34,883 bases of DNA from a virus: IMG/VR virus record IMGVR_UViG_3300042402_001476, positions 1 to 34,883 of that record; one strand, written 5' to 3'. Below the pieces are notes generated by a model. That model was not told the DNA's origin and did no database searches. It worked only from the letters and a program-made list of their open reading frames with translations. A program made the translations under genes and the position numbers. Positions 1 through 20,569 of the stretch are shown here, one piece after another (the first letter of the stretch is position 1; every line of letters begins with the position of its first letter).

Positions 1-419
1 TAGAAGAATCAAACACTTATCCTCTTAACAATCCAGAATGCTACAAGATATTATCGTGGTACAATGATTTTTTTGTAGAAATAATTTGCGAAACATATTT
101 TAGCGGCAAGACTTTTTATCCCACAGAAAAAACTTGGAGGGCTATTGCTTCTAAGACTCCATTTATAATACAGGGCCCAACTAATTTTTTAAAACAATTA
201 AAAAAACTAGGATTCAAAACGTTTGATCGTTGGTGGGACGAAAGCTACGACAAAGATCCCTATGAATATAAGTTGACAGCAATTTTAAGAGTTATTGATC
301 AAATCAATAGTCTGGATATCAACAAGGTATATAATGAAATGCAACCAATATTGGAACATAATTATAATGTTTTTAAAAATTTAAGTAGTGTAGAATTTCA
401 AAAACTAGTAAATGACTAA
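1..419 (+). CDS. Glycosyltransferase-like protein, C-terminal part (cut by window edge)
   Basis: An open frame enters from the left edge (first whole codon at base 3) and stops at 417-419, about 138 residues. It contains PTEKTWRAI, a hydrophobic PFIIQG strand, then LGFKTFDRWWDESYD. The same sequence pattern (TEK, PFVLLG, YGFKTFDSWWDEGYD, then an EHNYNVF/EYNYELF ending) forms the C-terminus of the minus-strand gene at 15523-16671, so the two are paralogs. The arrangement resembles the C-terminal donor-binding half of GT-B-like glycosyltransferases, but I cannot name a family. It overlaps the next gene by 8 bases and is probably the upstream member of the radical SAM operon. Confidence 0.75.
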   Translation, partial: EESNTYPLNNPECYKILSWYNDFFVEIICETYFSGKTFYPTEKTWRAIASKTPFIIQGPTNFLKQLKKLGFKTFDRWWDESYDKDPYEYKLTAILRVIDQINSLDINKVYNEMQPILEHNYNVFKNLSSVEFQKLVND

Positions 420-1794
420 AAGTAAATTTTTAAGCGGCGCCGAAGAGATGAAGGATAAATTAGGTCCTGGACTCTGTTTGGCCAAGTGGCAACAGGTAAG
501 CTTGCATCTTCCTACAGGATTGACTAACAGTTGCTATCATCCGCCGTTGCATGCGATAGATGCCACATTATTAAAGGACAATCCCAGTGCGTTACACAAC
601 ACCCCATATAAAAAAGAACAGCGTAAGATTATGTTACGTAACGAACGTCCGCAGGAATGTAGTTATTGCTGGACACAAGAAGACATGGGGAATTTGAGTG
701 ACAGACATTATAGATCAGGAGAACCTTGGGCCGCGGAACACTTTGAAACTATTGTAAACAGCACAGGAGATGAAGATGCAATTCCAAGTTATGTGGAGGT
801 CAATTTTAATCACGCTTGTAACCTTAAGTGTAGCTATTGCAGTCCTCAGTTTAGCAGCAGTTGGGCTGACGAAATCGCTAGGTATGGAGCATACCCCACT
901 AGTAATCCTCATAATGACCCTAGTCATTTTGCGGGTCGTAGAAGACCTATCCCCGCTCGTGAGGACAATCCTTACGTTGACGCTTTTTGGGAATGGTGGC
1001 CGAGTTTGTATCCAAAACTAAAACATTTTCGAATGACCGGCGGCGAACCCTTAATGGACCGTAATACCTATCGTGTATTTGACTATGTATTGGCGTTTCC
1101 TAAATCTGATTTACATATTGATGTTACCAGCAACTTTAGTGTGGAAGAAAAGTTATGGGAACAATATTTCAGTTATGTAAGTCAGTTATGCAACACCAAT
1201 ATCGAACATTTTATGCAGTATGTGAGTTTAGACTCCGGAATAGCTGAGCACGCCGAATATATTAGACATGGAATGGAATTTAAAAGAGTACTGGCAAGAG
1301 TTGATTATTTCTTAAGACATATACCCAATCGTAATAGTTTAACGTTTATTATTACTATGAACAATCTCAGTGTGCTAGGCTTAAAAAGGCAATTGGAAAC
1401 TGTTCTTGCTTTACGAAGATTACATAGTACGACATATCAAAGAGTTTGGTTTGATACACCCATTCTTAGACAACCCGCTTGGCAAAGTTTACAGATACTT
1501 CCGCCAGTTTATGTTAAACGATTACAAGATGTGGTAGATTGGATGCAGGCAAATTTAGAAACACCTGAACGTCCGTTCCAAGGATTCAAAGATTACGAAG
1601 TGCAAAGAATGCAACGAGTCGTAGATTGGATGCGAGAAGGTAGCAAATTAGCATCGGAATATGTTAAACTACAACGTGCTGATTTTTTTAGATTTTTTAA
1701 CGAGCACGATAAACGTAGAGAAACAGACTTCTTAAAGACATTTCCGGAAATGCGAGAATTCTGGAACGAATGCAAATATCATGCCCAAAATTAA
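412..1794 (+). CDS. Radical SAM protein with N-terminal SPASM/twitch-like cysteines (1 of 6)
   Basis: 460 residues. The radical SAM signature CNLKCSYC gives the 4Fe-4S ligands C136, C140 and C143, and GGEP at 210-213 is the SAM-binding motif. Before the core lie C22, C41 and the pair C83/C86 (CSYCW), with an ERPxxC context typical of SPASM/twitch auxiliary-cluster domains. Here that region precedes the core instead of following it. After the third core cysteine comes FSSSW, shared by five of the six copies. It is most similar to the next gene: both have SCxHP instead of the PCC of other copies, plus ALHNT, DNPYV and a long insert before GGEP. Family members use SAM to make a 5'-deoxyadenosyl radical; the substrate is unknown. 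It overlaps its neighbours by 8 and 14 bases. Confidence 0.93.
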   Translation: MTKSKFLSGAEEMKDKLGPGLCLAKWQQVSLHLPTGLTNSCYHPPLHAIDATLLKDNPSALHNTPYKKEQRKIMLRNERPQECSYCWTQEDMGNLSDRHYRSGEPWAAEHFETIVNSTGDEDAIPSYVEVNFNHACNLKCSYCSPQFSSSWADEIARYGAYPTSNPHNDPSHFAGRRRPIPAREDNPYVDAFWEWWPSLYPKLKHFRMTGGEPLMDRNTYRVFDYVLAFPKSDLHIDVTSNFSVEEKLWEQYFSYVSQLCNTNIEHFMQYVSLDSGIAEHAEYIRHGMEFKRVLARVDYFLRHIPNRNSLTFIITMNNLSVLGLKRQLETVLALRRLHSTTYQRVWFDTPILRQPAWQSLQILPPVYVKRLQDVVDWMQANLETPERPFQGFKDYEVQRMQRVVDWMREGSKLASEYVKLQRADFFRFFNEHDKRRETDFLKTFPEMREFWNECKYHAQN

Positions 1795-3136
1795 TAACGA
1801 AACAGATTTAGAATACAAGCGTAGGGTGATTGACATCAAGTCAGAATCATTCTGTGGAGCAAAATGGTACAATGCTACTATATGGTTGGGTTCGGGTATG
1901 ACTACAAGTTGTCATCATCCACTACCACATAAAGTAAGTGTCGAAGAAGTGCAAGCGAATCCTCGTGCATTGCATAATACTGCAAAGAAAAAAGAGGAAC
2001 GTGCTCAAATGCAGCAAGGAGAACGACCAGCAGGTTGCGAATACTGTTGGAAGATTGAAGACATAGGTCGCGACAACATCAGCGATCGTGTTTACAAAAC
2101 AGTAATACATTCAGATGAGGATTTGAATTATGCATTCAACACAGACCCCGGTGAAGACGTCAATCTTCGAACTCTTGAAATCAGTTTTGATCGCACTTGT
2201 CAGTTTGCTTGCAGTTATTGCAACCCTGCATTCAGTAGTACTTGGGTCAAAGACATCAGTACCAACGGACCTTACGTGGACCTGGTGTCTGACGGTAGGA
2301 ATCATTTTACTCATGGCCATGACAGTTCGCAGCTTTTTAAATTTGGTCAAGATAACCCATACGTCACGGCCTTCTTCCGATGGTGGGAATCAGACCTCCA
2401 CCAAACCTTAGACGAATTAAGAATTACCGGCGGCGAACCATTGATGTCAGGATATACCTGGCAATTGCTTGACTGGTTTAAAAACAATCGAGGCCGAAGC
2501 CAAACAAGATTGGCAATTAACAGTAACTTAGGAACACAAGTTGATATTGATCGTTTATTTTCAAGTGTGGACGCACCCATTGACCTATACACTAGTAATG
2601 AGAGCGTCGGCAGTCATGCAGAGTATATTAGAGACGGATTGGTTTGGGACGATTGGGCTAATAGTGTAGAATTAATACTAGATCAGCAAGTAGGTAATAA
2701 ATTACGCGGCTTACACGTCATGTGTACAGTTAATGCGTTATGTCTTGAAAGTTTAACTGAGTTTTTAGATTATGTAATAGAATGGAAACAATGCTACGGT
2801 CGAGCCGCAGTTAACTTCTCACTAAATATATTACGCTTTCCTAGTTTTCAATCTGCACTAATACTACCTGACAATTTACGTACACGGTATAAAGATCAAT
2901 TAACGGACTTTATAACTAGACATCATGGTTCCGAATTTGTACACGAGTATGAATGGAATCAGTTACAACGCTTAGTTGATTATCTTGACGTAGTTAAAAC
3001 ACCGCATAGTGAAGCATTTGAATTAGATAAGTTACGAAACGATTTCAAGCAGTTCTTTACACAGTACGACCAACGTCGTGATAAAGACTTTGCACAAGCA
3101 TTTCCCAACTTAGTGGAATGGTATAAAAGTTTATGA
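1781..3136 (+). CDS. Radical SAM protein with N-terminal SPASM/twitch-like cysteines (2 of 6)
   Basis: 451 residues, a clear tandem paralog of the preceding gene across its whole length. Core cysteines are C140, C144 and C147 (CQFACSYC), followed by FSSTW; GGEP is at 217-220. N-terminal cysteines are C25, C44 and C86/C89 (CEYCW), giving four candidate ligands for an auxiliary cluster. Its start lies 14 bases inside the upstream gene and its stop overlaps the next start by 4 bases (ATGA), so the genes are probably translationally coupled. The insert between core and GGEP (about residues 155-215, with DNPYVTAFFRWW) is specific to this pair. Substrate unknown; retention of both cysteine sets suggests both copies are active. 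Confidence 0.93.
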   Translation: MPKINNETDLEYKRRVIDIKSESFCGAKWYNATIWLGSGMTTSCHHPLPHKVSVEEVQANPRALHNTAKKKEERAQMQQGERPAGCEYCWKIEDIGRDNISDRVYKTVIHSDEDLNYAFNTDPGEDVNLRTLEISFDRTCQFACSYCNPAFSSTWVKDISTNGPYVDLVSDGRNHFTHGHDSSQLFKFGQDNPYVTAFFRWWESDLHQTLDELRITGGEPLMSGYTWQLLDWFKNNRGRSQTRLAINSNLGTQVDIDRLFSSVDAPIDLYTSNESVGSHAEYIRDGLVWDDWANSVELILDQQVGNKLRGLHVMCTVNALCLESLTEFLDYVIEWKQCYGRAAVNFSLNILRFPSFQSALILPDNLRTRYKDQLTDFITRHHGSEFVHEYEWNQLQRLVDYLDVVKTPHSEAFELDKLRNDFKQFFTQYDQRRDKDFAQAFPNLVEWYKSL

Positions 3137-4470
3137 CAAGTGATGTAAAAGGATTTTATAACAAGGGGTACGTGTATAATGAACGTGCCCCTTATTTCGT
3201 TGATAAAGACACGCTCACAGAAGAACAATTGACACGCTTGACCAAGAGTGACAACTTCTGTATGATGCCTTGGGTACACATGCATGCCTTCCCGGATGGT
3301 CGTACTTACCCTTGCTGCCTAGCAGACTATTGGCATCCGGTAGGAGACCTGCGTAAAAACACCATGGCAGAAGTTTGGAATCAAACTGGCTATCGAACAA
3401 TACGTATAAACATGTTGCAAGACAAGCCCAGTGTGCAATGTACTAAATGTTATGAACAAGAAAAGAACGGATTCTTTAGTATGCGTAATGATGCTAATCG
3501 TAACTACGGGCATCATATAGCAGAAGTAGAACAAACACAAGAGGACGGTACTCATCCAGAATTTAGGATAAGGTATTGGGATGTTAGATTCAGTAATCTT
3601 TGCAATTTTAGTTGCCGTACCTGTGGTCCTATTTTTAGCAGCAATTGGTATAATGATCATGTTCGGTTATATAATAGGAAGCCTGATGTGCTTGGTCGTG
3701 ATATGCTTCGTGTGGAGTATACAACAGGTAATGAAGATGACATGATAGCACAGATGCTGCCACACATACCACACTTGGAACAGGTATACTTTGCCGGTGG
3801 CGAGCCTTTGATAATGAAGGAACACTATACACTATTAGAGAAGTTAATTGAAGCTGGTAAAACAGATGTGCGTATTCAGTATAATACAAACTTTAGCGAA
3901 CTTAGATTTAAAGACAAGCACGTATTTGAATACTGGAAACATTTTAAGAACGTTAGCGTAGGTGCAAGTTTAGATGCTAGTGGAGCTCGTGCAGAACTAA
4001 TGCGTAAAGGCACCAATTGGCAACAGGCAGTGGAAAATAGACAGCGCATGATACAAGAAGCACCAAACGTAGACTTTTACATTGCAGCCACAGTAAGTGC
4101 ATTGAATGTATTACACGTCTTAGACTTTCACAAAGAATGGGTAGAGCTAGGCTTGATCAAAGCTAAAGATTTTAATGTAAACATTTGCCAAGACTCTAAC
4201 TGGTACCGTGTGGACATATATCCCCCGGCGTTTAAAGAGCAAGTTCTCATACCTGCGTATGAAAGACACATAGCATGGCTAGAACCACAAGACAAACTAC
4301 AACGTGCTACCAATGGATTCAAGAGTGTGATTAACTTTATGCGAGCACAAGACCAATCCAACTTGTACCCAAAGTTTATTAGTGAAACTAACAAGCTAGA
4401 CAAGTTGCGTGAAGAAAATACTTGGAAAACATTTCCAGAATTGATATTATCTAATTATGAACTTACCTAA
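3133..4470 (+). CDS. Radical SAM protein with N-terminal SPASM/twitch-like domain (3 of 6)
   Basis: 445 residues. The N-terminal domain is the most recognisable of the six: CMMPWVHMH (C43), PCC (C61/C62), PVGDLR, EVWN, then C103/C106 in CTKCYEQE. This is the order of motifs seen in C-terminal SPASM domains, here placed before the core. The radical SAM core follows with C157, C161 and C164 (CNFSCRTC), FSSNW, and GGEP at 222-225. It overlaps the upstream gene by 4 bases and the downstream one by 14. Related to copies 4 and 6. Expected to bind one SAM-cleaving 4Fe-4S cluster and probably one auxiliary cluster; the reaction is not known. Confidence 0.94.
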   Translation: MTSDVKGFYNKGYVYNERAPYFVDKDTLTEEQLTRLTKSDNFCMMPWVHMHAFPDGRTYPCCLADYWHPVGDLRKNTMAEVWNQTGYRTIRINMLQDKPSVQCTKCYEQEKNGFFSMRNDANRNYGHHIAEVEQTQEDGTHPEFRIRYWDVRFSNLCNFSCRTCGPIFSSNWYNDHVRLYNRKPDVLGRDMLRVEYTTGNEDDMIAQMLPHIPHLEQVYFAGGEPLIMKEHYTLLEKLIEAGKTDVRIQYNTNFSELRFKDKHVFEYWKHFKNVSVGASLDASGARAELMRKGTNWQQAVENRQRMIQEAPNVDFYIAATVSALNVLHVLDFHKEWVELGLIKAKDFNVNICQDSNWYRVDIYPPAFKEQVLIPAYERHIAWLEPQDKLQRATNGFKSVINFMRAQDQSNLYPKFISETNKLDKLREENTWKTFPELILSNYELT

Positions 4471-5659
4471 AACAATGTGTATGTTACCATGGGTCAGTAT
4501 CGAAACTAGTCCAATTGGTACTGCTCGGCCATGCTGTCTTGCTATAGATGAAATAACAAAGTCAGATGGTACCAAGTATGATCTCAATGAAACAAATTTA
4601 ACAGAAATATACAAATCAGAGTATATGCAACAGTTAAGGCAACAGTTTCGTCGAGGTGAAAAGCCTGCCACGTGTAATCGTTGTTGGGACGAAGAAGCTT
4701 CAGGTCGCACAAGCAAAAGACAGCATAGCCAAATACGATTAAAACATCTAGTAGATAAAGTTGACTACGCAAATGACTTACCAGATCAACTTTGGTTTGT
4801 TGATCTAAAACTAGGTAACATATGCAATCTTAAATGCAGAATCTGCGGTTCGTGGTCAAGCAGTAACTGGGCAATAGAAGAAATAGCATACTTGCCGGGA
4901 ATTGATAAAAAACAACATCTAGCATACAAATATCTTAAGCAAGGAATGTGGCCACGCAAGACACAAACGTTTTGGGATAACATGCGTGAACTAATTCCCA
5001 ATATTGAATATATGGAATTCACAGGCGGTGAGCCTTTTATGATCGAAGAGCATTTTGAACTTTTAAGATTCGCTGTCAAAACAGGCCATGCTAAACACAT
5101 TGATATTCATTACAATACTAACGGAACACAATGGCCCGGCGCCGAAGACGTATGGAAAGAATTTAGATTAGTTGAAGTTGCATTTAGTGTAGACAATATA
5201 GGTTCAAGATTTGAGTATGAGCGTTATGGCGCTAAATGGGACGAAGTAAATGCTAACATAGATAGATTTCATGCACTAAGAGATTCTAGTAAAAATTTCT
5301 GGACACAATTATGTTTAACTGTAAACATACAGAATATATATTATTTAGATGAGTTAATTAATTGGGCCACAACCAAAAATTTTAACAATGTTTATTTTAA
5401 TATGTTACACAGCCCGGATCATATGAGTATAGCTAACTTAACACCACACGCAAAAACAATGGTTATTGAAAAGTTAGATAATGCAAATGTTCCGTCTCAG
5501 TATAAATTAGAACTTATGCGTATTAAAAAATATATTCTAAATAGCAAAGGCAGTGATGGGAGAGAATTTTTAGAAAAAATGCAGCGCACTGACGCATATC
5601 GAAAACAAAATTTTAAAGATACACATTTAGAAATAGCAAAGGCAATGGGTTATGAATAA
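4457..5659 (+). CDS. Radical SAM protein with N-terminal SPASM/twitch-like domain (4 of 6)
   Basis: 400 residues, the shortest of the six. It begins almost at once with the auxiliary domain: CMLPWVSIE (C8), PCC (C26/C27), LTEIYKSE, then C73/C76 in CNRCWDEE. The core has C123, C127 and C130 (CNLKCRIC), SSSNW, and GGEP at 190-193. The start overlaps the previous gene by 14 bases and the stop overlaps the following SGNH gene by 8. Because the cysteine motif begins at residue 8, a later start would remove it, which supports this start. Function beyond radical SAM chemistry is not assignable. Confidence 0.94.
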   Translation: MNLPKTMCMLPWVSIETSPIGTARPCCLAIDEITKSDGTKYDLNETNLTEIYKSEYMQQLRQQFRRGEKPATCNRCWDEEASGRTSKRQHSQIRLKHLVDKVDYANDLPDQLWFVDLKLGNICNLKCRICGSWSSSNWAIEEIAYLPGIDKKQHLAYKYLKQGMWPRKTQTFWDNMRELIPNIEYMEFTGGEPFMIEEHFELLRFAVKTGHAKHIDIHYNTNGTQWPGAEDVWKEFRLVEVAFSVDNIGSRFEYERYGAKWDEVNANIDRFHALRDSSKNFWTQLCLTVNIQNIYYLDELINWATTKNFNNVYFNMLHSPDHMSIANLTPHAKTMVIEKLDNANVPSQYKLELMRIKKYILNSKGSDGREFLEKMQRTDAYRKQNFKDTHLEIAKAMGYE

Positions 5660-6527
5660 AATAGTTTCTTTTGGCGACAGTTTTACATTTGGATCTGAAC
5701 TTGAAAATAATGATGACGGGTCAAAGGCCTGGCCGGGGTTAATTGCTGAAAAATTAAAAATTTCATATGCAACATTGGCTGTCCCGGGGTGCGGTAACGA
5801 GTCAATTGCTAGGCAGATCTATACCTATTTTTCTAGTAATCCCGGTAGTGATGTAATAGCAATTGTCAATTGGACATGGCCCATGCGATGGGATTTTTAT
5901 ATCACCACTCCGATTAAGCGAGCAGTCGAGCGAAAGTTAGTCAAAAATTTTGTAAGAGAAAAAGATTACAGTTCAATGGCCGGCAGCGATTGGCCAACAT
6001 ACGACGATTTTTGTAATGGTGTAATATCTGACAATCCTGCTGTTGAAACAGAAATTGATACCTTTTTAAATTCACTTAGTGAAACCGACAATGGAAAATG
6101 GATAACATTGGGACCAACTTGTGTACCTAGTAAGCTCAATTTTTTAAATTCTCAAAAAGCACAGTCGTTGATTAACATTTACAATGATTTTTATAAAGAA
6201 AGTTTACTATGGCATAGATATAGAAGTTTGCAATCAATTTTCGCTGCACAACAATATCTAAAGAATAAAAATATAAAATCAATCCAAACTTATATGGACT
6301 ATGATATGTTAAACAGCGAACATCCTGCACTTTCGCCAACATACATAATAGAATTACAAAATTTAATAAAAGACGAGTTAACACTATTTGATCAAGATAA
6401 AAATTTTTTAGATTGGGCTAGAGTCATGAACTATAAAGTAACTCCCAGTCCCGGAGATCATCCTTTAGAAGAAGCACACGAACATGCATCAAACTTATAT
6501 CTAAAAAAAGTTATGGAAATGATGTAA
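5652..6527 (+). CDS. SGNH/GDSL-like hydrolase family protein (1 of 5)
   Basis: 291 residues. The N-terminal block is FGDSFTFGSE with the nucleophile-type Ser10. A conserved Gly-Asn follows at 48-49 (PGCGNE), and a C-terminal D-H-P (269-271, DHPLEEAH) supplies the Asp/His pair of the SGNH fold. Such enzymes often remove acetyl or other acyl groups from sugars. An internal stretch at about 105-140 (GSDWPTYDDF, then an EI(D)xF pattern) recurs at the N-terminus of the next gene, a radical SAM protein. No signal peptide, so probably cytoplasmic. Overlaps flanking genes by 8 bases and 1 base. Base composition is visibly more AT-rich than the radical SAM genes before it. Confidence 0.82.
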   Translation: MNKIVSFGDSFTFGSELENNDDGSKAWPGLIAEKLKISYATLAVPGCGNESIARQIYTYFSSNPGSDVIAIVNWTWPMRWDFYITTPIKRAVERKLVKNFVREKDYSSMAGSDWPTYDDFCNGVISDNPAVETEIDTFLNSLSETDNGKWITLGPTCVPSKLNFLNSQKAQSLINIYNDFYKESLLWHRYRSLQSIFAAQQYLKNKNIKSIQTYMDYDMLNSEHPALSPTYIIELQNLIKDELTLFDQDKNFLDWARVMNYKVTPSPGDHPLEEAHEHASNLYLKKVMEMM

Positions 6528-7792
6528 TGGATTTGGAAAAAATAATTGATAAAAAAAGTTATCGCGATTTCAAAGGTGCAGACTGGCCCGCTTATGAGAG
6601 TTTTGTTAAAAATGATTATACTGCGTCCGATAAAATAAAAGCCGAAATTGATCAATTTGTGTCTATAATGCACGACCAATATAACAACTTGTCATCAACA
6701 AGGACAATTGAATTATCTAATGCAAATCAAAAAAGACAAGAACAAATTTTCTATAACAAATCTTTTATTGGACCTAATAAATGCAGAATTCCTTGGGAAA
6801 CACTTGGAGTTAATGCGAACGGAAATATTTTTATTTGTTCGAGTCCAAGCTGGATACCAATTTTTATTGGTAGTATACTTGAAGCGGATAATATTTTTGA
6901 AATACTAAATTCTGAAACAGCTAAAAAAATTAGATTAGAAATATTAGAGAATAGATATTTTTATTGTAATTCAAACATTTGCGGATTTTTCCAGCAGCAA
7001 GATCAGTCTACATATAAAAAAAGTTTTGAAGTAGAGGATATCACTGCTTTAAATGTATCAACGGACAATGATGATCTATGCGTTAATCATATACCAAAAG
7101 AATTAATATTTGATTTTGATCCAACTTGTAATTTTAAATGTCCTAGTTGCAGAATTGAACATCAAAACTATAACAATCATCATATTATTAGACCAATTAA
7201 CAATATGATATCGGAAAAAATTAAAAAATTAATAATAGACAAGATTGAAGATCAACCTATTGTTATTAGATGGGCAGGTGGCGAACCTTTCATGAGCGAA
7301 GTGTATTTAGACCTATTTGATTATATCATAAAAACAAATAAGAAAAATATAAAAAATATAATTCAAACCAATGGAAGTTTGTTTAAAAGTAAACCTGACT
7401 TACTCGAAAAGCTATTGCCGTTTATTTCTAATTTAAGAATTAGTTTTGACGCAGGATGCGAAGATACTTATAAATTAACCCGAGTTGGCGGCGACTGGAA
7501 GAAACTATTAGAAAATGTGATGTACATTAAAGAACTAATAAAACAATATAAATTTAAAACAATACTGTCAGCAGATTTTGTAGTTCAAAAAAACAACTAT
7601 AAAGATTTGCCGGCATTTGCTAGCTTGTGTAGAGAGTTAAATTTATCAATGAATATACAGAAAATGTGGAATTGGGGAACATGGGACACAGAAACTTTTC
7701 ATGACATGAATGTGTACGATAGAAAACATTATTTGTACAACGATGTTGTGAAATATTTCGAGCTAGCAAATTTACCAATGGCAAAAAATTGA
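6527..7792 (+). CDS. Divergent radical SAM protein with DWP-motif N-terminus (5 of 6)
   Basis: 421 residues. Core cysteines C201, C205 and C208 (CNFKCPSC) and GGEP at 251-254 identify radical SAM. The SPASM-like region has C86 (CRIPW), a single C104 where others have PCC, and C147/C152 spaced CxxxxC instead of CxxC. The SSxW motif after the core is absent. Residues 10-45 (SYRDFKGADWPAYESF and onward) resemble an internal part of the SGNH protein immediately upstream. This gene and its SGNH neighbour are the most AT-rich stretch of the operon, so the pair may have been acquired together. The stop overlaps the next start, a TTG, by 4 bases. Confidence 0.9.
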   Translation: MDLEKIIDKKSYRDFKGADWPAYESFVKNDYTASDKIKAEIDQFVSIMHDQYNNLSSTRTIELSNANQKRQEQIFYNKSFIGPNKCRIPWETLGVNANGNIFICSSPSWIPIFIGSILEADNIFEILNSETAKKIRLEILENRYFYCNSNICGFFQQQDQSTYKKSFEVEDITALNVSTDNDDLCVNHIPKELIFDFDPTCNFKCPSCRIEHQNYNNHHIIRPINNMISEKIKKLIIDKIEDQPIVIRWAGGEPFMSEVYLDLFDYIIKTNKKNIKNIIQTNGSLFKSKPDLLEKLLPFISNLRISFDAGCEDTYKLTRVGGDWKKLLENVMYIKELIKQYKFKTILSADFVVQKNNYKDLPAFASLCRELNLSMNIQKMWNWGTWDTETFHDMNVYDRKHYLYNDVVKYFELANLPMAKN

Positions 7793-9081
7793 AACCCAAT
7801 ACTTTATGCATGGCACCGTGGACGCACACGTATCTGAGCCCACAGACAGAAAGACGTATGTGTTGTGCTAGTCGCGAACCCGCACAGAACTTCGAACAGT
7901 ATATTGATACCACAGCCGGCACGGGAAAATATATACCTATCACGCTAGAAGAACATTGGAACGGGGATCACATGCGCTCTGTAAGAAAACGCATGCTGGC
8001 CGGCGAAACCCTACCCGAGTGCGAAGTATGCAATGATCGACTGTTGAATACTGATGTTTACCGCAGTTATTTTAATAATCTCTTTGAACATAAGTACAAA
8101 CAAGTAGTAGAAACAACTGACGCTTCGGGCTACACGACCATGAAGCCCGTAAGCTGGGATTACCGATTCAGTAATCTCTGCAACTTCAAATGCCGTATGT
8201 GCGGTGACATGCTGTCTAGCTCGTGGGAAAGTGAGCAAAGACAACACAATATGATCAACTGGTCTAATCCAAAAAACAATTGGATGAAACCTGGGATCAA
8301 AAGCGAAATTGAAAAGTTCCAGACAACTCAAATTGAAGCCGAGTTCGCAGCAGCGGTAGAGGACCACCGTGTAGAAGAAGTATATTGGGTAGGTGGCGAA
8401 CCTTTAATGTATGAACAACATTGGAGGTATATGAAAAGAATAATAGAATTAGGAGATGGTCCAAATGTCTACGCAAGATATAATACTAACCTTAGTAGAA
8501 TTAACTATAGGGGTATTAACTTGTTTAGGGATATTTTATCTGGGTTACGTGATTGGCAAGTCTGCGCGAGCCTCGACGGAACAGGACGAATTGGCGAGTA
8601 CATTAGAACAGGCCTCAAATACGATAGCTGGCTTGAGAACTTCGCTGAAGGAGTATCGCATTCAACTCATCGTAGACAGATGCGAATCGATTTCACCCTT
8701 ACCCTGCCAGGATTGTTTGAGGTTGAACGGATTGCAAGATTGTCCGCAACCTACGGAACACAAGTTCTGGCGAAGGTAGTTTTTAGTTTTAGCTCGGACA
8801 TAGTTATGTCGCCTTTAGCACTACCCAGACCCTTATTAGATAAATGGGTAGACGAAATATTAAATGCCGGAGTAGCCGGCCCATTAAAGGATATCTTAGT
8901 CCAGCTAAAAACTAGACCCACATTCCAAGAGCAGTATGGCGAAGCAGAATATGCCAAAGGTATTGCTCGAGGAAAGGCTCGTGTGTTACAATTAGAGTCT
9001 ATCCGTAGTCAAGACATTACCATGGATGAAATTTTATCAGAAAGAGCCGATGTGTATGAGTGGTGGACTTCCATCAGTTAA
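7789..9081 (+). CDS. Radical SAM protein with N-terminal SPASM/twitch-like domain (6 of 6), TTG start
   Basis: 430 residues from a TTG start at 7789, chosen because it overlaps the previous stop as TTGA and keeps the first cysteine motif (CMAPWTHTY, C7). C25/C26 (MCC) and C78/C81 (CEVC) complete the auxiliary set. The core is C131, C135 and C138 (CNFKCRMC), then SSSW, with GGEP at 202-205. It groups with copies 3 and 4. This gene is clearly richer in G+C than the preceding AT-rich pair, with individual 60-base stretches near 45 percent against about 15 percent, suggesting a separate origin. A nested frame at 8465-8779 is listed separately. Confidence 0.92.
   Translation: MKPNTLCMAPWTHTYLSPQTERRMCCASREPAQNFEQYIDTTAGTGKYIPITLEEHWNGDHMRSVRKRMLAGETLPECEVCNDRLLNTDVYRSYFNNLFEHKYKQVVETTDASGYTTMKPVSWDYRFSNLCNFKCRMCGDMLSSSWESEQRQHNMINWSNPKNNWMKPGIKSEIEKFQTTQIEAEFAAAVEDHRVEEVYWVGGEPLMYEQHWRYMKRIIELGDGPNVYARYNTNLSRINYRGINLFRDILSGLRDWQVCASLDGTGRIGEYIRTGLKYDSWLENFAEGVSHSTHRRQMRIDFTLTLPGLFEVERIARLSATYGTQVLAKVVFSFSSDIVMSPLALPRPLLDKWVDEILNAGVAGPLKDILVQLKTRPTFQEQYGEAEYAKGIARGKARVLQLESIRSQDITMDEILSERADVYEWWTSIS
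8465..8779 (+). CDS. Possible overprinted small membrane protein inside radical SAM gene 6 (weak)
   Basis: A 104-codon frame lies entirely within the radical SAM gene in the +1 frame. Its ATG at 8465 follows AGGAG with 9 bases between, a good ribosome-binding site that also fits the host frame by chance coding of LGDG. The product would have an N-terminal hydrophobic helix (about residues 6-28), a charged helical stretch and a C-terminus with CQDC. This layout recalls inner-membrane spanins, but there is no sequence match I recognise. Other +1-frame shadows in this window are also hydrophobic, so chance is a serious explanation. Confidence 0.15.
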   Translation: MSTQDIILTLVELTIGVLTCLGIFYLGYVIGKSARASTEQDELASTLEQASNTIAGLRTSLKEYRIQLIVDRCESISPLPCQDCLRLNGLQDCPQPTEHKFWRR

Positions 9082-10198
9082 AGTAGTATTACGAAACCCA
9101 TTAAACTACAGTGATCAAATTGATTACACTATAGTTCCTAACGACACCCAAATATCTAAGGATTGGATAGTTGCTCTTAAACAAATCTTGTCTACAAAGA
9201 AACATTTAGAAAAAAATTTTTGTTTTTTAGGATTTCCAAAAACAGCTAGAAATTTAAGTTATCTGTGCAATGAACTAAATCAAGCAGTTTATCGTATTAA
9301 TTTGTTTAACATGACAAAGATATGGCAGAGCAACGGGTTATCTGAATATGCCATAGAAGACTATTACACTCCTGACACAGTTAGGTATGGCGATGAGTAT
9401 CCAGTAGAAGAAGATACTAGTCCTGGTTTATATATCAAGCACGGAGTGATGAATAGATTACATAATCATTTTGAAGTTCTACAAGGGACTGTAGATAATT
9501 TAAGTCATTATTATATCTTAGCTGACTATAACACAAAATATGCAATTAGACAATTAAATAATCTCTGTCATGAGATAGAAAATCTTATACTTAGTCAACG
9601 TAAACAAATTACCTTACCTGAATGGGTACGGGCTAGTCAAGTTACTACTTTTTTACATGCCGATCGATACGTACTAACAGATGAACACAGAAAAAGTTTT
9701 GCAAATGGTTACGATAGAAAATTTGGGCATGTATATATGCACTGGGCACAAATTGGAAAAACACTATTTGAAGTTTTCCGCGACGAAAATGCTCCTGCAC
9801 TAGATTCAACTATATGCGAAGCTGTTACACATTTACAATATTACAGTGGCGAATTTGACGTTGAATGGGGCAATGATGTTGTATACGGCAAAAATAAAAA
9901 ATGGCACAACGAATTAATAGACGACTTTAACGCATGGTTAAAAAAATATAACTACGATCCATGCGATACTAATTTAAGTTTAGGTTACTTGCCATTGGGA
10001 CAAATACCGCTACAGCAAACTTTTGGTACTACCAACGAAATACAAATAAGATCAATCTTGTCAAAATATTTAGATATCTACAAAATAGAAGTAGATGATG
10101 TCTATAACATTTACGATTACTGCTGGACTGATTTTAATTACAAACAAATGCAAATTGATATGATGAGACCAGGATATGATTATAATAGCAGGCGGTGA
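9056..10198 (+). CDS. Conserved phage protein of unknown function
   Basis: 380 residues from ATG 9056; the frame is also open from 9050 and 9026. The 9056 start is preferred because AGAAAGAG lies at suitable spacing, although it gives a 26-base overlap with the radical SAM gene. I recognise no catalytic motif. The protein is soluble and rich in Tyr, Asn and His, with a histidine- and tryptophan-containing centre (HNHFEVLQG, YMHWAQIGKTLFEVF, YYSGEFDVEWG) and an ending DMMRPGYDYNSRR. Similar proteins occur, to my recollection, in marine phages without assigned function. It overlaps the next SGNH gene by 23 bases, so it belongs to the same operon. Confidence 0.85.
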   Translation: MSGGLPSVKVVLRNPLNYSDQIDYTIVPNDTQISKDWIVALKQILSTKKHLEKNFCFLGFPKTARNLSYLCNELNQAVYRINLFNMTKIWQSNGLSEYAIEDYYTPDTVRYGDEYPVEEDTSPGLYIKHGVMNRLHNHFEVLQGTVDNLSHYYILADYNTKYAIRQLNNLCHEIENLILSQRKQITLPEWVRASQVTTFLHADRYVLTDEHRKSFANGYDRKFGHVYMHWAQIGKTLFEVFRDENAPALDSTICEAVTHLQYYSGEFDVEWGNDVVYGKNKKWHNELIDDFNAWLKKYNYDPCDTNLSLGYLPLGQIPLQQTFGTTNEIQIRSILSKYLDIYKIEVDDVYNIYDYCWTDFNYKQMQIDMMRPGYDYNSRR

Positions 10199-10994
10199 TA
10201 GTTTTATTTTTGGTAATGAGTTGTGTGATCAGCAAGGATCGATGTTTAGCTCAAAGACTTTTTCTGCTATATTAGCACAAGGTGCCGAGTATCATTGTGC
10301 GGCATGGCCAGGAAATGCAAACAATGCAATTTCTAGAATGACAATGGCCGCATGCGAACGATTTAAAAAACAAAAACCAATTGTTATTGTCACATGGACA
10401 TTTTGTCAAAGATACGAATTTCGTTTTAACTATAACACTAAACAACGTATAAGTCCATGGTATAGTGTAAATCCATGGACCGCAGACAACCTGTCGGCAA
10501 AAACTTTAAAAGATATTTTTGTAACAGACAACGGTAACATTATAAAAGAGCAGCTACATAATCTAGAAACAGCTCAACAAACTGGAACCGCAGATTTTGC
10601 AGCTGGATTTTATAAACATGTTGGTAATAGCGAGTATTATGAATTATACGCTAGTTTTAAAGAATTTGTATTCTTGCAGAATTACTTTAAAATAAATGAA
10701 ATCCCTTATTTAATGATTCCAGCTGAAAATAATTTTTACAAACACGAGAATTATACAAGATCAAAAGACACTTTTTTGGAAGACTTATATAATCAAATAG
10801 ATTGGACTAATTGGTTCTTCTTTCCAGAAGGTACCGCAGCCAATGAAACCACGGAACCTAGAGGATTTTACCAATGGGCCATTGAGAATAAATATCCTGT
10901 GGGCACATCTCACCCTCTCGAAGAAGCACATGCAGCAGCAGCAGAACTCATAAAGGAAAAATTCAATGGACTGGTTACGAAATCTTTGGAATAG
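10176..10994 (+). CDS. SGNH/GDSL-like hydrolase family protein (2 of 5)
   Basis: 272 residues. It starts with the nucleophile block AGGDSFIFGNE (Ser9), then WPGNANNAI with the conserved Gly-Asn near 46-47, and ends with SHPLEEAH (His246), where the other plus-strand copies have DHPLE. The usual Asp two residues before the His is therefore replaced, and whether the catalytic dyad is intact is uncertain. About the same length as copy 1 and related to it at both ends. Its start lies 23 bases inside the upstream gene and its last 29 bases overlap the small peptide gene at 10966. Probable role: acyl-ester removal or transfer on a sugar, by family only. Confidence 0.8.
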   Translation: MIIIAGGDSFIFGNELCDQQGSMFSSKTFSAILAQGAEYHCAAWPGNANNAISRMTMAACERFKKQKPIVIVTWTFCQRYEFRFNYNTKQRISPWYSVNPWTADNLSAKTLKDIFVTDNGNIIKEQLHNLETAQQTGTADFAAGFYKHVGNSEYYELYASFKEFVFLQNYFKINEIPYLMIPAENNFYKHENYTRSKDTFLEDLYNQIDWTNWFFFPEGTAANETTEPRGFYQWAIENKYPVGTSHPLEEAHAAAAELIKEKFNGLVTKSLE

Positions 10995-11067
10995 AGTACG
11001 ACTAGAAATACGTTATAGACGTAAGTTAAAAGAATTGAGAAAAAGAGATCCATTTATATACAAATGA
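10966..11067 (+). CDS. 33-residue basic, Trp-containing peptide
   Basis: A short frame of 33 codons. It begins MDWLRNLWNRVRLEI and ends KRDPFIYK, with a run of Arg/Lys in between (RRKLKELRKR). The start overlaps the SGNH gene by 29 bases and the TGA stop overlaps the next ATG as ATGA at 11064-11067, the same joint used throughout this operon. That is strong evidence for a real gene. The peptide would form an amphipathic, strongly cationic helix. Similar tiny proteins ending in RDPFIYK are, from memory, common in marine phages. It could act at a membrane or bind nucleic acid; function unknown. Confidence 0.75.
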   Translation: MDWLRNLWNRVRLEIRYRRKLKELRKRDPFIYK

Positions 11068-11702
11068 TATACGCAATTGGTGACAGTTTTACATTTGGTG
11101 ATGAATTGCCGTCGCAAGAGTTAGCTTGGCCGACATTACTGAGTAAAAAGCTCGGCACACCTGTTCTTAATAAGGGACGCCCGGCCAGCGGAAACAACCG
11201 CATGGTTAAACGAGCAATTGACGCAGTCATTGATAAAAGTCAACTAATAGTCATTGGCTGGAGTGATTGTAATAGACAAGAATTTGCCGACAATATTGGA
11301 ACATACGATCTTTGGGCAGGAAGAAATTATCGTGCGTTCCAACTTGAAGATCCTACACATAGAATTAATTTAATAAAATACATGACTGCGTATGATACAC
11401 CAGAGTATTATTATGCAGAATGGCTCAGACAAATTATTCTCGTACAAAATTTATGCAAAGCAAATGACATAAATTGCGTTATGTTTATTGCTTGTGGAGC
11501 AAACGCTAGTCATAATCAATACCATACAAAATATAAAAAATTAGTTGATGCCATTGATCATTCTGAATTTGTAGACGACATGTTCACAAGTGTAGGGGAA
11601 TGGACATATGGTACTCCGCATGGGCCCAATGATCATCCTTTAGAACAAGGCCATGAAATAATAGCCAATAAAATTTATGAACATATCAAAAATCTTGGTT
11701 GA
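11064..11702 (+). CDS. SGNH/GDSL-like hydrolase family protein (3 of 5)
   Basis: 212 residues, the compact form of the family. IGDSFTFGDE (Ser8) is the first block, GRPASGNNRM gives the conserved Gly-Asn at 43-44, and DHPLEQGHE (Asp190, His191) is the C-terminal dyad, so all visible catalytic positions are present. There is no signal peptide or membrane segment. It is joined to the preceding 33-residue gene by ATGA and separated from the next gene by 21 bases containing GAGGA. Likely an esterase acting on an acylated sugar or cofactor, inferred only from the family and neighbouring carbohydrate genes. Confidence 0.84.
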   Translation: MIYAIGDSFTFGDELPSQELAWPTLLSKKLGTPVLNKGRPASGNNRMVKRAIDAVIDKSQLIVIGWSDCNRQEFADNIGTYDLWAGRNYRAFQLEDPTHRINLIKYMTAYDTPEYYYAEWLRQIILVQNLCKANDINCVMFIACGANASHNQYHTKYKKLVDAIDHSEFVDDMFTSVGEWTYGTPHGPNDHPLEQGHEIIANKIYEHIKNLG

Positions 11703-11723: not shown

Positions 11724-12509
11724 ATGGCAGTAGAAGTTTTTGAAAATATATTAACTAAATTACAAATTGAAGATCTTTTGAATTATTTTCAAATTGATGA
11801 TCATCATGTTGACGATAGATTTGATGTTAGATCAAAGTCACCAAACTGGAACGATCAGTGGCCAAAACAATCTATAGAAAAAGAATTAAAAAAAATTCTT
11901 CAACCCTACGATGTAGAGACAGTGGTATTTAATTCTAGCAGGATTAGTTTCAGACTGCATGTAGATACCGGTACTGGACATGAAAAACTGTACAAAAATG
12001 TTTTGATTCCGATGTCGTATACGGGTAAAGCTTCTACGGTCTTTTTTAATAACTATTGGCACAAAAAAAGTACAAGATTTTCAAGATCCAATATAAGTCC
12101 TTTTAGATACAACATGTTCAACAAACACGGAAACATGGTCTGGGTAGATGATATACGCATACTACTAGAACAATGTAAAACCAATCCTCACAGTGTGACA
12201 GATTTTGTAGTCGATGATCAATTTATACAGTCGCTTGAAGATTTGGTTAAAAAACGATACTGTGCTGACGAACGCACAAGCAATTATAGTGATGTAGTAA
12301 ATTACGACCCGAGCAAAAAATTTGATATAACTTTTCATGAAGAATATTTAAATCATATTCCAATTGACGATTTACACGGCCTATCTATTGATAGAGTATA
12401 CAATTGGTCTATTGGAGATATTGTAATTTTTGATAGAATTCAATTACATTGTGCCGGCGCAGGGCACACAAACAAAGTGGGACTTAGTTTGTTCCTCAAT
12501 TTAAAATGA
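11724..12509 (+). CDS. 2-oxoglutarate/Fe(II)-dependent oxygenase-like protein
   Basis: 261 residues. The double-stranded beta-helix iron site can be traced: FRLHVDTG gives the H-x-D pair (H79, D81). Near the end IQLHCAGAGHTNKVGLS gives the distal His (H242) and a Lys (K251) that could bind the 2-oxoglutarate carboxylate. The order and spacing fit non-heme iron dioxygenases of the phytanoyl/prolyl hydroxylase type, though overall similarity is too low to name a subfamily. It would hydroxylate an unknown substrate. A good ribosome-binding site (GAGGA) precedes the ATG, and the stop overlaps the carbamoyltransferase start by 4 bases, suggesting coordinated expression. Confidence 0.7.
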   Translation: MAVEVFENILTKLQIEDLLNYFQIDDHHVDDRFDVRSKSPNWNDQWPKQSIEKELKKILQPYDVETVVFNSSRISFRLHVDTGTGHEKLYKNVLIPMSYTGKASTVFFNNYWHKKSTRFSRSNISPFRYNMFNKHGNMVWVDDIRILLEQCKTNPHSVTDFVVDDQFIQSLEDLVKKRYCADERTSNYSDVVNYDPSKKFDITFHEEYLNHIPIDDLHGLSIDRVYNWSIGDIVIFDRIQLHCAGAGHTNKVGLSLFLNLK

Positions 12510-13987
12510 ATATATTAGGAATCTCAGCTGGATTTCATGATGCCGCTGCCGCAGTAATCAATTCACACGGCGACATACTTTTTGCTGGTCATAGCGAACG
12601 ATATAGCAAAGTCAAGAACGATGCCAATATCAGTTATGACTTAATGAAGGATGTCATGGAGCAAGGCGACATTCATCATGTGGCCTATTATGAAACTCCT
12701 TGGAAGAAACAATTACGCAGGCTGTATAGTGGCGAAGGTATTGAGTGGAACAAGTTATCCGCTCGAAAAATATTAACGGAACAGTTTGGTGGGTATGCAC
12801 AAATACCTAGTTATAGCACACACAGTCATCATCTCAGTCATGCAGCAGCAGGATTTCAAACCAGTCTATATGATAGAGCCACTGTAGTTGTTATTGATGC
12901 CATTGGTGAATGGGATACTATCACGATATGGGGTGCCAAATACGACAGCAAAGGACAAGCGCACTATAAACGTCTGTGGGGGCAACGATATCCACATAGC
13001 ATAGGATTGTTTTATAGTGCAATGACCAAACGTGCAGGTCTTAAACCCAATGAAGATGAATATATTCTAATGGGTATGAGCGCATATGGTAAACGGGATA
13101 TTAGCGATTTAATGAGCCATAGACTTGTACATAACGAAGTTAATATTTTGTTTAAAGAAAGCTTTCATGTTGGTATTCCGTCTAACTATCTTGAGTACGT
13201 ACACGACGTAGACATTGCCGCTGGCGCACAAGACCTAGCAGAAAATTTAATTTATAGTGTAATGCGCCGGGCCAGAGATTTTAAGTGGAGCACTAATCTT
13301 GTATACATGGGCGGAGTGGCATTAAATTGTTTAGCAAATAGAAACCTTGGAGAATACTTTGATAATATATGGATTATGCCTAACCCTGGCGATGCTGGTT
13401 CTAGTTTGGGAGCCGCAGCATTGGCGTTCGGCCGTCGCCTCAATTGGAGTAGTGCTTACTTGGGACATAATATCCCCGGTCCTTACCCTGTTAATAATGT
13501 TATTGATACTTTGCTTACAGACAAAATCTGCGGAGCCGCCAGCGGAAGAGCAGAATTTGGACCAAGAGCGTTAGGCAATAGAAGTCTTCTTGCAGACCCT
13601 AGAGGACCTGATATAAAGGATAGAGTAAATGAAATCAAACGCAGACAACAATTCAGACCTTTTGCCCCTGTTATATTGGAAGAGATGGCTAATCAGTACT
13701 TTGATTTCAGCCCTGGCTGGACTAATAGCCGTTATATGCAGTCTGTCGCTCGTTGTCGGCGTCCTGACCTGTTTCCTGCTATCTGTCATGTTGATGGGAC
13801 CAGTCGAGTACAAACGGTACCGCAAGATGGTTCGGGAATCAGAGAACTGTTAGAAAAATGGTTTGCGATAACTGATTGTCCTATGTTGCTTAATACAAGT
13901 TTAAACATCAAAGGAGAACCAATGGTTAACAATCGTGCAGATGCAGACAGATTTGAACAACGATACGGTGTAAAGGTACACTCATGA
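12506..13987 (+). CDS. Carbamoyltransferase (NodU/CmcH/TobZ family)
   Basis: 493 residues. N-terminal ILGISAGFHDAAAA and SERYSKVKND are the start of the YrdC-related/actin-like half. HHLSHAAAGF (H108, H109, H112) is the metal-site motif, DAIGEWDT the phosphate strand, and GGVALNC and GRAEFGPRALGNRS the C-terminal conserved blocks, followed by FRPFAPVILEE. The family transfers a carbamoyl group from carbamoyl phosphate, through carbamoyl-adenylate, onto hydroxyls of sugars or antibiotics. Length is slightly below the bacterial average (about 550). It is coupled by 4-base overlaps to oxygenase-like genes on both sides, which suggests sequential tailoring of one molecule. Confidence 0.95.
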   Translation: MNILGISAGFHDAAAAVINSHGDILFAGHSERYSKVKNDANISYDLMKDVMEQGDIHHVAYYETPWKKQLRRLYSGEGIEWNKLSARKILTEQFGGYAQIPSYSTHSHHLSHAAAGFQTSLYDRATVVVIDAIGEWDTITIWGAKYDSKGQAHYKRLWGQRYPHSIGLFYSAMTKRAGLKPNEDEYILMGMSAYGKRDISDLMSHRLVHNEVNILFKESFHVGIPSNYLEYVHDVDIAAGAQDLAENLIYSVMRRARDFKWSTNLVYMGGVALNCLANRNLGEYFDNIWIMPNPGDAGSSLGAAALAFGRRLNWSSAYLGHNIPGPYPVNNVIDTLLTDKICGAASGRAEFGPRALGNRSLLADPRGPDIKDRVNEIKRRQQFRPFAPVILEEMANQYFDFSPGWTNSRYMQSVARCRRPDLFPAICHVDGTSRVQTVPQDGSGIRELLEKWFAITDCPMLLNTSLNIKGEPMVNNRADADRFEQRYGVKVHS

Positions 13988-15150: not shown

Positions 15151-15587
15151 AAGAAAAATTTAAACGTGCATACATGCAGACAGCGCAGACATTTGCCAAA
15201 TTGAGTTCTGCACGTAGATTACATGTTGGTGCTATTGTAGTCAAGGATGATAGAATTATCAGTATAGGCTACAACGGTATGCCAGCAGGTTGGGATAACA
15301 ACTGTGAAGATGAAACTCTCTACGAAGACGGCAGTGTAATACTTAAAACCAAACCTGAAGTATTACATGCAGAAACAAATGCAATTGCTAAACTTGCTAG
15401 ATCAAACGAAAGTGGTCTTGGTGCAGATATATTTGTGACTCATGCTCCTTGTTTGGATTGTGCCAAGCTCATTTATCAAAGCGGTATTCGTGCAGTTTAT
15501 TATGATAAAGATTATAGAGACATTACCGGATTGGAGTTCTTAAAGAAATCCGGGGTGGCAGTCGAGAAACTGCAGACTGAAGACTAA
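15147..15587 (+). CDS. dCMP deaminase (zinc cytidine/deoxycytidylate deaminase family)
   Basis: 146 residues. The zinc site is complete: HAETNAI (H74, proton-shuttle E76) and PCLDC (C102, C105). GYNGMPAGWDN before it is the substrate-loop motif typical of dCMP deaminases of the ComEB/T4 type. It converts dCMP to dUMP, the substrate of the thymidylate synthase encoded on the other strand at 22535-23452. Its last 65 bases run antisense over the end of the convergent gene at 15523-16671. Last gene of the long plus-strand operon. Confidence 0.95.
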   Translation: MKEKFKRAYMQTAQTFAKLSSARRLHVGAIVVKDDRIISIGYNGMPAGWDNNCEDETLYEDGSVILKTKPEVLHAETNAIAKLARSNESGLGADIFVTHAPCLDCAKLIYQSGIRAVYYDKDYRDITGLEFLKKSGVAVEKLQTED

Positions 15588-16671
15588 CGCTCATTTCGTT
15601 CCAAATACTGTTAACAAACTCTTTACTGTAAAAAAGTTCATAATTGTATTCAAGTATATGATTCATTCCTCGCAACATGTTTTCAAGATCCTGGTCTGAC
15701 GTGTTGCAGATTTCTTCGATTATTTTTACTACAGCTTGTATTCGTTCAATGGGATCAGCAATGTCATCATAACCTTCGTCCCACCAAGAATCAAATGTTT
15801 TAAATCCGTAGCTTTTTAAGTATTTTAAATTACCAACACATCCTAATAACACAAAAGGTTGTTTTGCTACAATAGGCTTAAATATTTTTTCAGTAAGATG
15901 AGTACGCTGATCCCAGAAGCATGTTTCTGTAACAACATGTAAAAAGCTTTCCATAATAGCAGGAATAGGTCCAATGGTTTGACTTCCGTTTGGTATATTG
16001 CCCTCACAATCAATTCTTAAAGGACCTTCAATCTCATCTAAATAGGACTTAATTTTTAAAACATAATCGGACGGTATATTATATTTGCTTATAGTTTCTA
16101 AAATATTTTTTTCATAACGACCGTGAACTGGACAAACTTCACTATAACTTACATGCCCTTGCCCTAATAAATTTCGTTGTGCTAATTCACCTATTAGAAA
16201 ACTTCTGTACACTCTAGAATTTCCAGTTATACGATTGAAGGTTATATATTTTTTGTTTATGGTTCTTTTAGATGGCGGAATTAAATTTGTACAAAATCGA
16301 TATCCTCTGTACCAATCAGCAGCAGCCAGCCCGTGGAAGAAATAATTGGCATCTTTAAAATTAAATTGATTAAGTATTTTAGTTTTTTCGATGCTTTCTT
16401 TTTCTGTGTTAAGTAATATAATAGGACGAGTAAACCCTTCGTCGTTCTTAAAGTTTTTAACAATATATTGAAAGATCGGCGTATTATAAAAAGAATACAG
16501 AGGTTCTTGATCGTATGCAATAACTAATGGACCAAATCCTCCATTTTGCAAAGATTCTATATTTTCTGGTTGAGTTGATCCAAAAGGATGAAAATATATT
16601 ACTGTGGGTTGTGCTATAATAGTGTTTAGATAGGACAACAAATTTTCATAATGACTGTGAATATTATACAT
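15523..16671 (-). CDS. Glycosyltransferase-like protein, paralog of the gene at the left edge
   Basis: 382 residues. The N-terminal half has alternating strands (TVIYFHPFGS, GPLVIAYDQEPL), then YITFNRITGNSRVYRS. The C-terminal half has VTETCF, LTEKIFKPI, PFVLLG and YGFKTFDSWWDEGYD, which align with the partial gene at 1-419. The ETxF...TEKxFKPI pattern resembles the donor-binding C-terminal region of GT-B/GT10-like enzymes; the exact family is uncertain. Its ATG (16671-16669) overlaps the ATG of the divergent gene in the palindrome CATG, and its 3' end overlaps the deaminase gene by 65 bases. No clear ribosome-binding site is seen upstream. Confidence 0.75.
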   Translation of the reverse strand: MYNIHSHYENLLSYLNTIIAQPTVIYFHPFGSTQPENIESLQNGGFGPLVIAYDQEPLYSFYNTPIFQYIVKNFKNDEGFTRPIILLNTEKESIEKTKILNQFNFKDANYFFHGLAAADWYRGYRFCTNLIPPSKRTINKKYITFNRITGNSRVYRSFLIGELAQRNLLGQGHVSYSEVCPVHGRYEKNILETISKYNIPSDYVLKIKSYLDEIEGPLRIDCEGNIPNGSQTIGPIPAIMESFLHVVTETCFWDQRTHLTEKIFKPIVAKQPFVLLGCVGNLKYLKSYGFKTFDSWWDEGYDDIADPIERIQAVVKIIEEICNTSDQDLENMLRGMNHILEYNYELFYSKEFVNSIWNEMSVSLQSAVSRLPPRISLRTPIR

Positions 16672-19604: not shown

Positions 19605-20569
19605 AGTCGATTCTGCCAATAGGTTGACAACTTTAGCCAATTGATATAACGTTCAAATCCTTCTTCTACATCAATCGTGGGATTGTAGCCAAAATCATTT
19701 TGTGCTCGTGCGATACTTAATCTTCCACGACTGGGGAAATTTAAATCCCTTTCAGCTAGTTTAACAGAACCGCCACCTACTATTTGAGTTATTAGATCGG
19801 CCGCTTCGGCTAAAGTAATAGTGTTTTTGTTGCTGCGTGTGATATTATAAATTTTATTAGCAGTATCTTTACTTACAACAGCATCGGCAATACCTTGTGC
19901 AGTATCGTCAACATGTGTAAAATCTAGTCTTTCGTTTGCGCCACGTACAACTAGGTCTTGGTTGCGTAGTGCTGCCAATACAAATTTACTCACAACACGA
20001 TCGTCAACATCCCACTCGCCGTATACCGCACTAGGACGAATGATAACATATTCTATACCGTGTCTGGTACAGTAGTCTTCGACTAATTTTTCTCCCATGT
20101 ACTTCATGATACCATATTGTCCTTGCGGATTACACACAGCATCTTCAGTTACACCAGATTCAAAATCGCCATATACCATACTTGAACTAATGTATACGAA
20201 TCTTCGAACCTTGTAAGTTGCCGCAGCTTCTAGTAGATTGATAAGACCCGTGATCATTACTTGACTGGCAGTGACAGGATCTTGCTGTACAACTTTTTGC
20301 CTAGGAAAACTAGCAAGATGCACAATACATTTGATATCAAATATTCCAACGTGACTCTTAATAGCGTTGGTATCTCTGATATCTACTACCAATGGAGCGT
20401 ATCCTGATCGATTGACCCTACCAGAAATTAAATACGCAAGTTCATCTTGAGGAATAAATCCATAGTTAGTTCTGGAGTCAACGCTATAACAATCAACACC
20501 TTTGTCACGTAAAAGTTTAATTACATTATGCCCAATGAAACCGGCACCGCCAGTAATAAGTGTTTTCAT
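19601..20569 (-). CDS. NAD-dependent sugar-nucleotide epimerase/dehydratase (extended SDR)
   Basis: 322 residues. The NAD site is TGGAGFIG (6-13), with D31 at the end of the second strand for the ribose. YISSSMVYGD carries the catalytic Ser, and Y152xxxK156 (YGIMK) is the active-site pair. RPSAVYGEWD and the DFTHVDDTAQG block at the C-terminal side are typical of GalE/WbpP-like enzymes acting on UDP- or dTDP-sugars. Complete length for the family. Overlaps the small gene upstream and the aminotransferase downstream by 4 bases each, forming a coupled sugar-nucleotide unit. Confidence 0.94.
   Translation of the reverse strand: MKTLITGGAGFIGHNVIKLLRDKGVDCYSVDSRTNYGFIPQDELAYLISGRVNRSGYAPLVVDIRDTNAIKSHVGIFDIKCIVHLASFPRQKVVQQDPVTASQVMITGLINLLEAAATYKVRRFVYISSSMVYGDFESGVTEDAVCNPQGQYGIMKYMGEKLVEDYCTRHGIEYVIIRPSAVYGEWDVDDRVVSKFVLAALRNQDLVVRGANERLDFTHVDDTAQGIADAVVSKDTANKIYNITRSNKNTITLAEAADLITQIVGGGSVKLAERDLNFPSRGRLSIARAQNDFGYNPTIDVEEGFERYINWLKLSTYWQNRL

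Follow-up and report, generated by a model that had tools for sequence, protein, structure and literature searches.

Dozens of uncultured T4-like aquatic phages encode five radical SAM enzymes, here called A to E, in an order that is almost always kept, and orthologues of the set are found in bacterial loci that resemble those for surface glycans. We think the chances about even that A to E form a radical SAM set modifying a glycan of the host surface, a fixed five-enzyme core with decorations that can be swapped. The window, by which we mean the whole stretch that was analysed, is IMG/VR virus record IMGVR_UViG_3300042402_001476, positions 1 to 34,883 (34,883 nt), and this 34.9-kb record is perhaps a fragment.

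The radical SAM genes of the window

A preliminary description of the window reported six complete radical SAM (rSAM) genes within 412-9081, and all six ORFs are found there, uninterrupted by stops and with a single CxxxCxxC and a single GGEP motif apiece (Table 1). Neighbouring ORFs overlap by 1-14 bases and the only interruption is an SGNH gene, again as described. When the record was searched with rSAM D as query, exactly six places were found, and these are the six ORFs. Membership in N_Twi_rSAM was defined as a whole-protein score over the curated cut-off of 170 bits for NCBIfam NF033640; A to E all score over it, and F falls below it and thus outside the family. The E-values range from 1e-27 (F) to 1e-118 (C), and the homology of the six ORFs to rSAM proteins is far beyond chance.

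The three cysteines of the SAM cluster and four or five N-terminal cysteines are invariant in each of A to E (73-82 orthologues each). As in other N_Twi_rSAM proteins, a twitch-like cluster domain with its cysteines lies N-terminal to the rSAM core, but A to E differ from the family as described in being five distinct, separately conserved subfamilies in one operon. The SPASM matches of the Pfam scan are likewise located before the core, whereas in a canonical SPASM maturase the domain is C-terminal to it. By sequence profile, residues 4-78 of D match the twitch domain of BtrN (residues 184-256), a 2-deoxy-scyllo-inosamine dehydrogenase, although the domain is C-terminal in BtrN and N-terminal in D, a permuted arrangement. 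The AF2 model of D gives a Z of about 13 to BlsE, viperin and DesII, so that two sugar enzymes, BlsE and DesII, are among its best matches, and the peptide maturases anSME and SkfB are nearly as good. We found no reaction in the literature for any N_Twi_rSAM member.

A tree made with a quick method groups A with B, and C with E with D on the same side, and leaves F apart on a long branch, which bears out the earlier division into three groups (A/B; C/D/E; F). The dN/dS ratios against the closest relative, given only where computable since dS was saturated for several genes, are 0.07-0.19 for B, E, c11, Sa and the carbamoyltransferase (CT), and 0.05 for thymidylate synthase and DHFR.

Table 1. 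Features of the window with position, strand and basis of assignment
Feature	Position	Strand	Basis
rSAM A, N_Twi_rSAM, core gene, sister of B	412..1794	+	NF033640 307 bits; orthologues in 73 loci
rSAM B, N_Twi_rSAM, core gene	1781..3136	+	NF033640 282 bits; order conserved
rSAM C, N_Twi_rSAM, core gene, fused to D in some relatives	3133..4470	+	NF033640 396 bits; SPASM and Radical_SAM (Pfam)
rSAM D, N_Twi_rSAM, core gene	4457..5659	+	NF033640 342 bits; AF2 pLDDT 93
SGNH/GDSL-like protein, internal DWPxY module, accessory insert	5652..6527	+	Weak Lipase_GDSL_2
rSAM F, N-Twi-like, N-terminal DWPxY module, accessory	6527..7792	+	NF033640 97 bits (< cut-off 170); own clade
rSAM E, N_Twi_rSAM, core gene, TTG start	7789..9081	+	NF033640 287 bits; mean pairwise identity 0.75 in 81 loci
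c11, conserved, predicted cyclophilin-like barrel with helical insert	9026..10198	+	78 loci; AF2 pLDDT 85.5
Sa, SGNH-like, GGDSF start, conserved	10176..10994	+	GDS motif; 48 orthologues; no Pfam match
33-aa DPFIYK peptide gene (MDWLRNLWNRVRLEIRYRRKLKELRKRDPFIYK), partner of CT	10966..11067	+	Pattern scan of viral loci
Sb, SGNH/DUF6071-like	11064..11702	+	DUF6071 E 1e-7; in many relatives
Oxygenase-like gene, 5' flank of CT	11724-12509	+	HxD..H / HxE..H-type motif, by eye
O-carbamoyltransferase (CT), NodU/TobZ-like, core	12506..13987	+	Carbam_trans_N, Carbam_trans_C; 70 full-length orthologues
Oxygenase-like gene, 3' flank of CT	13984-14541	+	HxD..H / HxE..H-type motif, by eye
GT9, putative GT-B-like glycosyltransferase, conserved	15523..16671	-	Motif reading only; in most loci
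Repeat-domain protein related to GT-like c6, conserved	16670..18526	+	Relatives; no Pfam match
DegT/DnrJ/EryC1 sugar aminotransferase	18504..19640	-	Pfam E 8e-76
NAD-dependent sugar epimerase/dehydratase	19601..20569	-	Pfam E 3e-42

A conserved core with a variable slot

Among viral loci showing both flanks, the order A..B..C..D..E is kept in 58 of 62, and in four distinct loci (L012, L013, L014/L017, L124) C and D are a single ORF. The kept order and the fusion together argue for a joint function of A to E, and we infer that the five catalyse different steps on one substrate. The joint pathway proposed in the preliminary description, which would have been unlikely if the genes never travelled together and were scattered independently, is supported for A to E, also by their recurrence in Bdellovibrionota, but not for F, which does not travel with them. 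The carbamoyltransferase was expected to co-occur and does so in relatives, in contrast to the two oxygenase-like genes, for which no orthologue was found in the first 14 relatives and one or two in a larger set. Mirror-tree correlations are 0.52-0.74 among A, B, E, CT and c6; for C, D and c11 most values are smaller, suggesting that genes are exchanged within the operon.

At least 550 viral stretches contain a relative of D. Among long contigs that carry the operon, the largest measures 374 kb, and a T4-type portal is encoded on 17 of 23. That phages usually have no rSAM gene or a single one does not apply to this group, in which a long T4-like contig has 6-16 N_Twi matches. An A-type Fe-S carrier, present on 7 of 19 long operon-bearing contigs, is in line with the Fe-S genes noted in an earlier study (PMC5332604). 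The nearest cultured phages are Vibrio phages K566 and K567, with weak rSAM matches only; c11 had no match among 50,697 records of cultured phages, nor was any match to c6 found in cultured phages.

The slot between D and E is variable: relatives have GT-like genes, SGNH genes or additional rSAMs there, or no gene at all. Most relatives lack F and the SGNH gene beside it, another gene usually filling the place of F, the F family is confined to few loci (55-64% identical), and no close orthologue of the SGNH gene was found in relatives. The GC content of F is 0.29, against 0.35-0.44, and that of the SGNH gene 0.34. F and this SGNH gene are an accessory insert. A module of about 40 aa, DWPxY, was seen N-terminally in F (aa 1-50) and in some C proteins, and also within one SGNH protein (5652-6527, aa ~100-150; other positions L008:1084, L019:8566, L059:8554, L077:11986); it may be a docking module passed from one enzyme of the island to another.

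Position and expression of the operon

In relatives, collagen-like tail fibres and the structural protein c4 lie upstream, followed by c8, c13, c5, c10 and c6; the tail-fibre genes are on the same strand as the operon and cannot be seen in the window. In 55% of 44 loci c8 is preceded by a sigma-70 match scoring 10/12 or better, compared to 4% in shuffles, while other gene starts are mostly at background, with smaller excesses before GT14, c6 and A. A promoter-like excess before c11 lies in the coding DNA of E and was left uncounted. The operon of the window would accordingly be read, as in its relatives, from a sigma-70-type promoter upstream of the window. Terminator-like hairpins were seen by eye in the gap between c4 and c8 in some loci, and in two genomes (G013 and G014) a tail-fibre gene has the late motif CATAAATA about 30 bases upstream, the position at which T4-type late genes carry such a motif. 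Together, the promoter, the hairpins and the late motif suggest an operon capable of early expression, independent of the late structural genes; this is a prediction from sequence, and read-through from the tail fibres is possible.

It has already been published that the host recognition cluster of marine T4-like phages holds rSAM cassettes and glycosyltransferase genes, and a modification of the O-chain was proposed for the pelagimyophages (PMC7029224). The relatives of our window likewise have an island beside tail fibres in T4-like genomes of aquatic phages, with GT genes and rSAMs, a likeness that rests on tail fibres and portal. The rSAMs of the pelagimyophages are however variable cassettes, whereas here a core of A-B-C-D-E is fixed together with c11 and the carbamoyltransferase. 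A T4-like marine genome, TARA_ERS488813_N000010, is similar in having many rSAM genes, 12 in number, which were discussed as Fe-S clients, but their arrangement and orthology are not described in the passage that discusses them (PMC5332604). No description of the ordered A-E core, the C-D fusion, the promoter or the Bdellovibrionota counterparts was found in the literature covered, which mostly excluded subscription journals.

Neighbouring genes

The order downstream in relatives is c11, Sa, Sb, carbamoyltransferase, and then GT9, GT14, DegT and epimerase. No family match for c11 was found in the family-profile scans; its model aligns best to cyclophilins (Z 7-8.4), a similarity at the fold level only, and Foldseek gave no significant match. 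The cyclophilin-like barrel is only a lead from the model, and we do not read a weak or missing fold match as a new fold. There are two types of c11, about 35% identical, and c11 distances correlate more with those of Sa (r 0.49) than with those of the rSAMs (r 0.07-0.22), so that c11 and Sa may be exchanged together. The profile of Sa found nothing in PDB.

The carbamoyltransferase scores 117 bits for Carbam_trans_N (cut-off 24) and 162 bits for Carbam_trans_C (cut-off 27), and its PDB matches are to GdmN/TobZ. It shares both Pfam domains with the TobZ/GdmN/NodU O-carbamoyltransferases and differs from them in being about 490 aa long and preceded by the DPFIYK peptide gene. The C-terminal end of this peptide is near-invariant, and no match to it was found in Pfam, PHROGs or cultured phages. 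A pattern scan gave 80 viral DPFIYK loci, 70 of which have a carbamoyltransferase, in every case downstream of the peptide gene and on its strand, the two overlapping by a median of 18 nt. The peptide had been considered as an rSAM substrate and was dropped when the scan tied it to the carbamoyltransferase.

Upstream in relatives, c5 is weakly glycogenin/GT8-like (E 0.01) and c6 weakly GT2-like (E 0.016); PDB profile matches of c6 were only to dipeptide-binding proteins and were judged irrelevant. From motif reading alone, c13, GT9 and GT14 are putative glycosyltransferase-like proteins, and no PDB or Pfam support was found for the GT9 profile. The island of G013 also has a UDP-glucose dehydrogenase and an epimerase.

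Bacterial relatives

Orthologues of A, B, C, D and E are clustered in a member of Bacteriovoracaceae (L045), on a contig that by eye has obg- and lgt-like genes. A 2.66-Mb contig of another Bdellovibrionota genome (G046) carries A, B, B, C, D, E and an F-like gene, and also NTP_transferase, a GT2 enzyme and three SGNH genes. In two Bacteroidota loci (L049 and L053) a carbamoyltransferase lies immediately beside an N_Twi gene; L049 is an O-antigen-like locus, and polysaccharide-export-like and PhyH-like genes were seen around such a pair (all by eye). These bacterial settings favour a glycan as the substrate. N_Twi members score over the cut-off in 30 of 114 Bdellovibrionota genomes, some of them with 14-16 matches. 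Expansions of N_Twi are seen in many Bdellovibrionota genomes, with 10-16 matches in some (G036, G037, G046, G073).

What the enzymes may act on

We hypothesize that A to E act jointly on one substrate, most likely a sugar unit or an already assembled glycan at the surface of the host cell (LPS/O-antigen type). The glycosyltransferase-like and sugar-nucleotide genes of the island would build or lengthen this substrate, and the SGNH proteins and the O-carbamoyltransferase would decorate it. The core [4Fe-4S] cluster of each enzyme would cleave SAM and abstract a hydrogen atom, and the N-terminal twitch-like cluster would assist, as in the dehydrogenation of an aminocyclitol by BtrN. The variable slots (F, SGNH, GT-like) could swap decorations from phage to phage, which would fit an alteration of the surface against competing phages. 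A glycan is supported by the weak glycosyltransferases c5 and c6, the UDP-glucose dehydrogenase and epimerase of G013 and the DegT and epimerase genes of the window, by the likeness of the carbamoyltransferase to GdmN/TobZ and of D to the BtrN twitch, BlsE and DesII, and by the gene set of G046, the Bacteroidota pairs, the promoter before c8 and the proposal made for pelagimyophages (PMC7029224). It is weakened in that the model of D fits peptide maturases about equally well, that the glycosyltransferase assignments are weak or based on motifs, and that the position beside the tail fibres, with a possible late read-through from them, also fits a modification of the virion.

The main rival explanation, which we find unlikely, is that a protein of the virion is modified or glycosylated, for instance the collagen-like tail fibres or c4, the small structural protein encoded just upstream. 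Hydroxylation and glycosylation of collagen-like proteins are known, and the island, which comes after the tail-fibre genes and shares their strand, could be transcribed by read-through from them; but in relatives a host-type promoter belonging to the operon follows the structural genes, in some loci together with the hairpins, and the A-E set is also present on bacterial chromosomes. A RiPP-like pathway, in which the rSAMs cross-link or epimerise a small peptide, would suit SPASM/twitch enzymes, which often are peptide maturases, and the island has a conserved 33-aa peptide gene. We nevertheless consider it improbable: the peptide goes with the carbamoyltransferase (present in 37 of 38 loci with enough downstream DNA) and not with the rSAMs (of 47 loci at least 8 kb long, only 15 show an A-F gene), and the Pfam and NCBIfam scans of the rSAM proteins of the window gave no PqqD/RRE match.

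Nucleotide chemistry, viperin-like or of another kind, that serves to take over the host or to counter its defences could be suggested by the match of the D model to viperin (Z 13) and by the profile of F, which matches PDB viperins (E 5e-4). The Z of D is similar for many other rSAM enzymes, however, all proteins are far below the NCBIfam cut-off for prokaryotic viperins (180 bits; best 49.5 bits, for F), and five conserved copies would have no obvious reason, which makes this explanation very improbable. Hypermodification of DNA, with the carbamoyltransferase acting on 5-hydroxymethylcytosine and the rSAMs elaborating the modified bases, seems more far-fetched still. A phage 5hmC carbamoyltransferase exists (PMC8670742), and the window has a dCMP deaminase and a thymidylate synthase homologue, but the synthase reads FN[VI]ASY in the window and its relatives, which we take as Asn177 and not the Asp177 of the 5hmC system, and this residue led us to drop DNA modification. 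Asn177 has been tied to dUMP and to unmodified contigs, and carbamoyltransferases near glycosyltransferases occur in unmodified contigs as well (PMC8670742).

Returning to the host-surface glycan, a more far-reaching version is that the A-E core, common to T4-like aquatic phages and Bdellovibrionota, yields a modified surface glycan not known before, that the phages express it early to rewrite the host surface, and that interchangeable accessory enzymes set the final structure; this we offer tentatively, as possible but rather doubtful. If it is true, an oxygen-sensitive radical pathway of several steps is present in hundreds of aquatic phages; it has not been seen in cultured phages, and no reaction is known for any of its five enzymes. 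Bdellovibrionota would then offer relatives of the A-E set on a bacterial chromosome, and the fixed core with its variable slots would be a clear test of how phages diversify the chemistry of the host surface.
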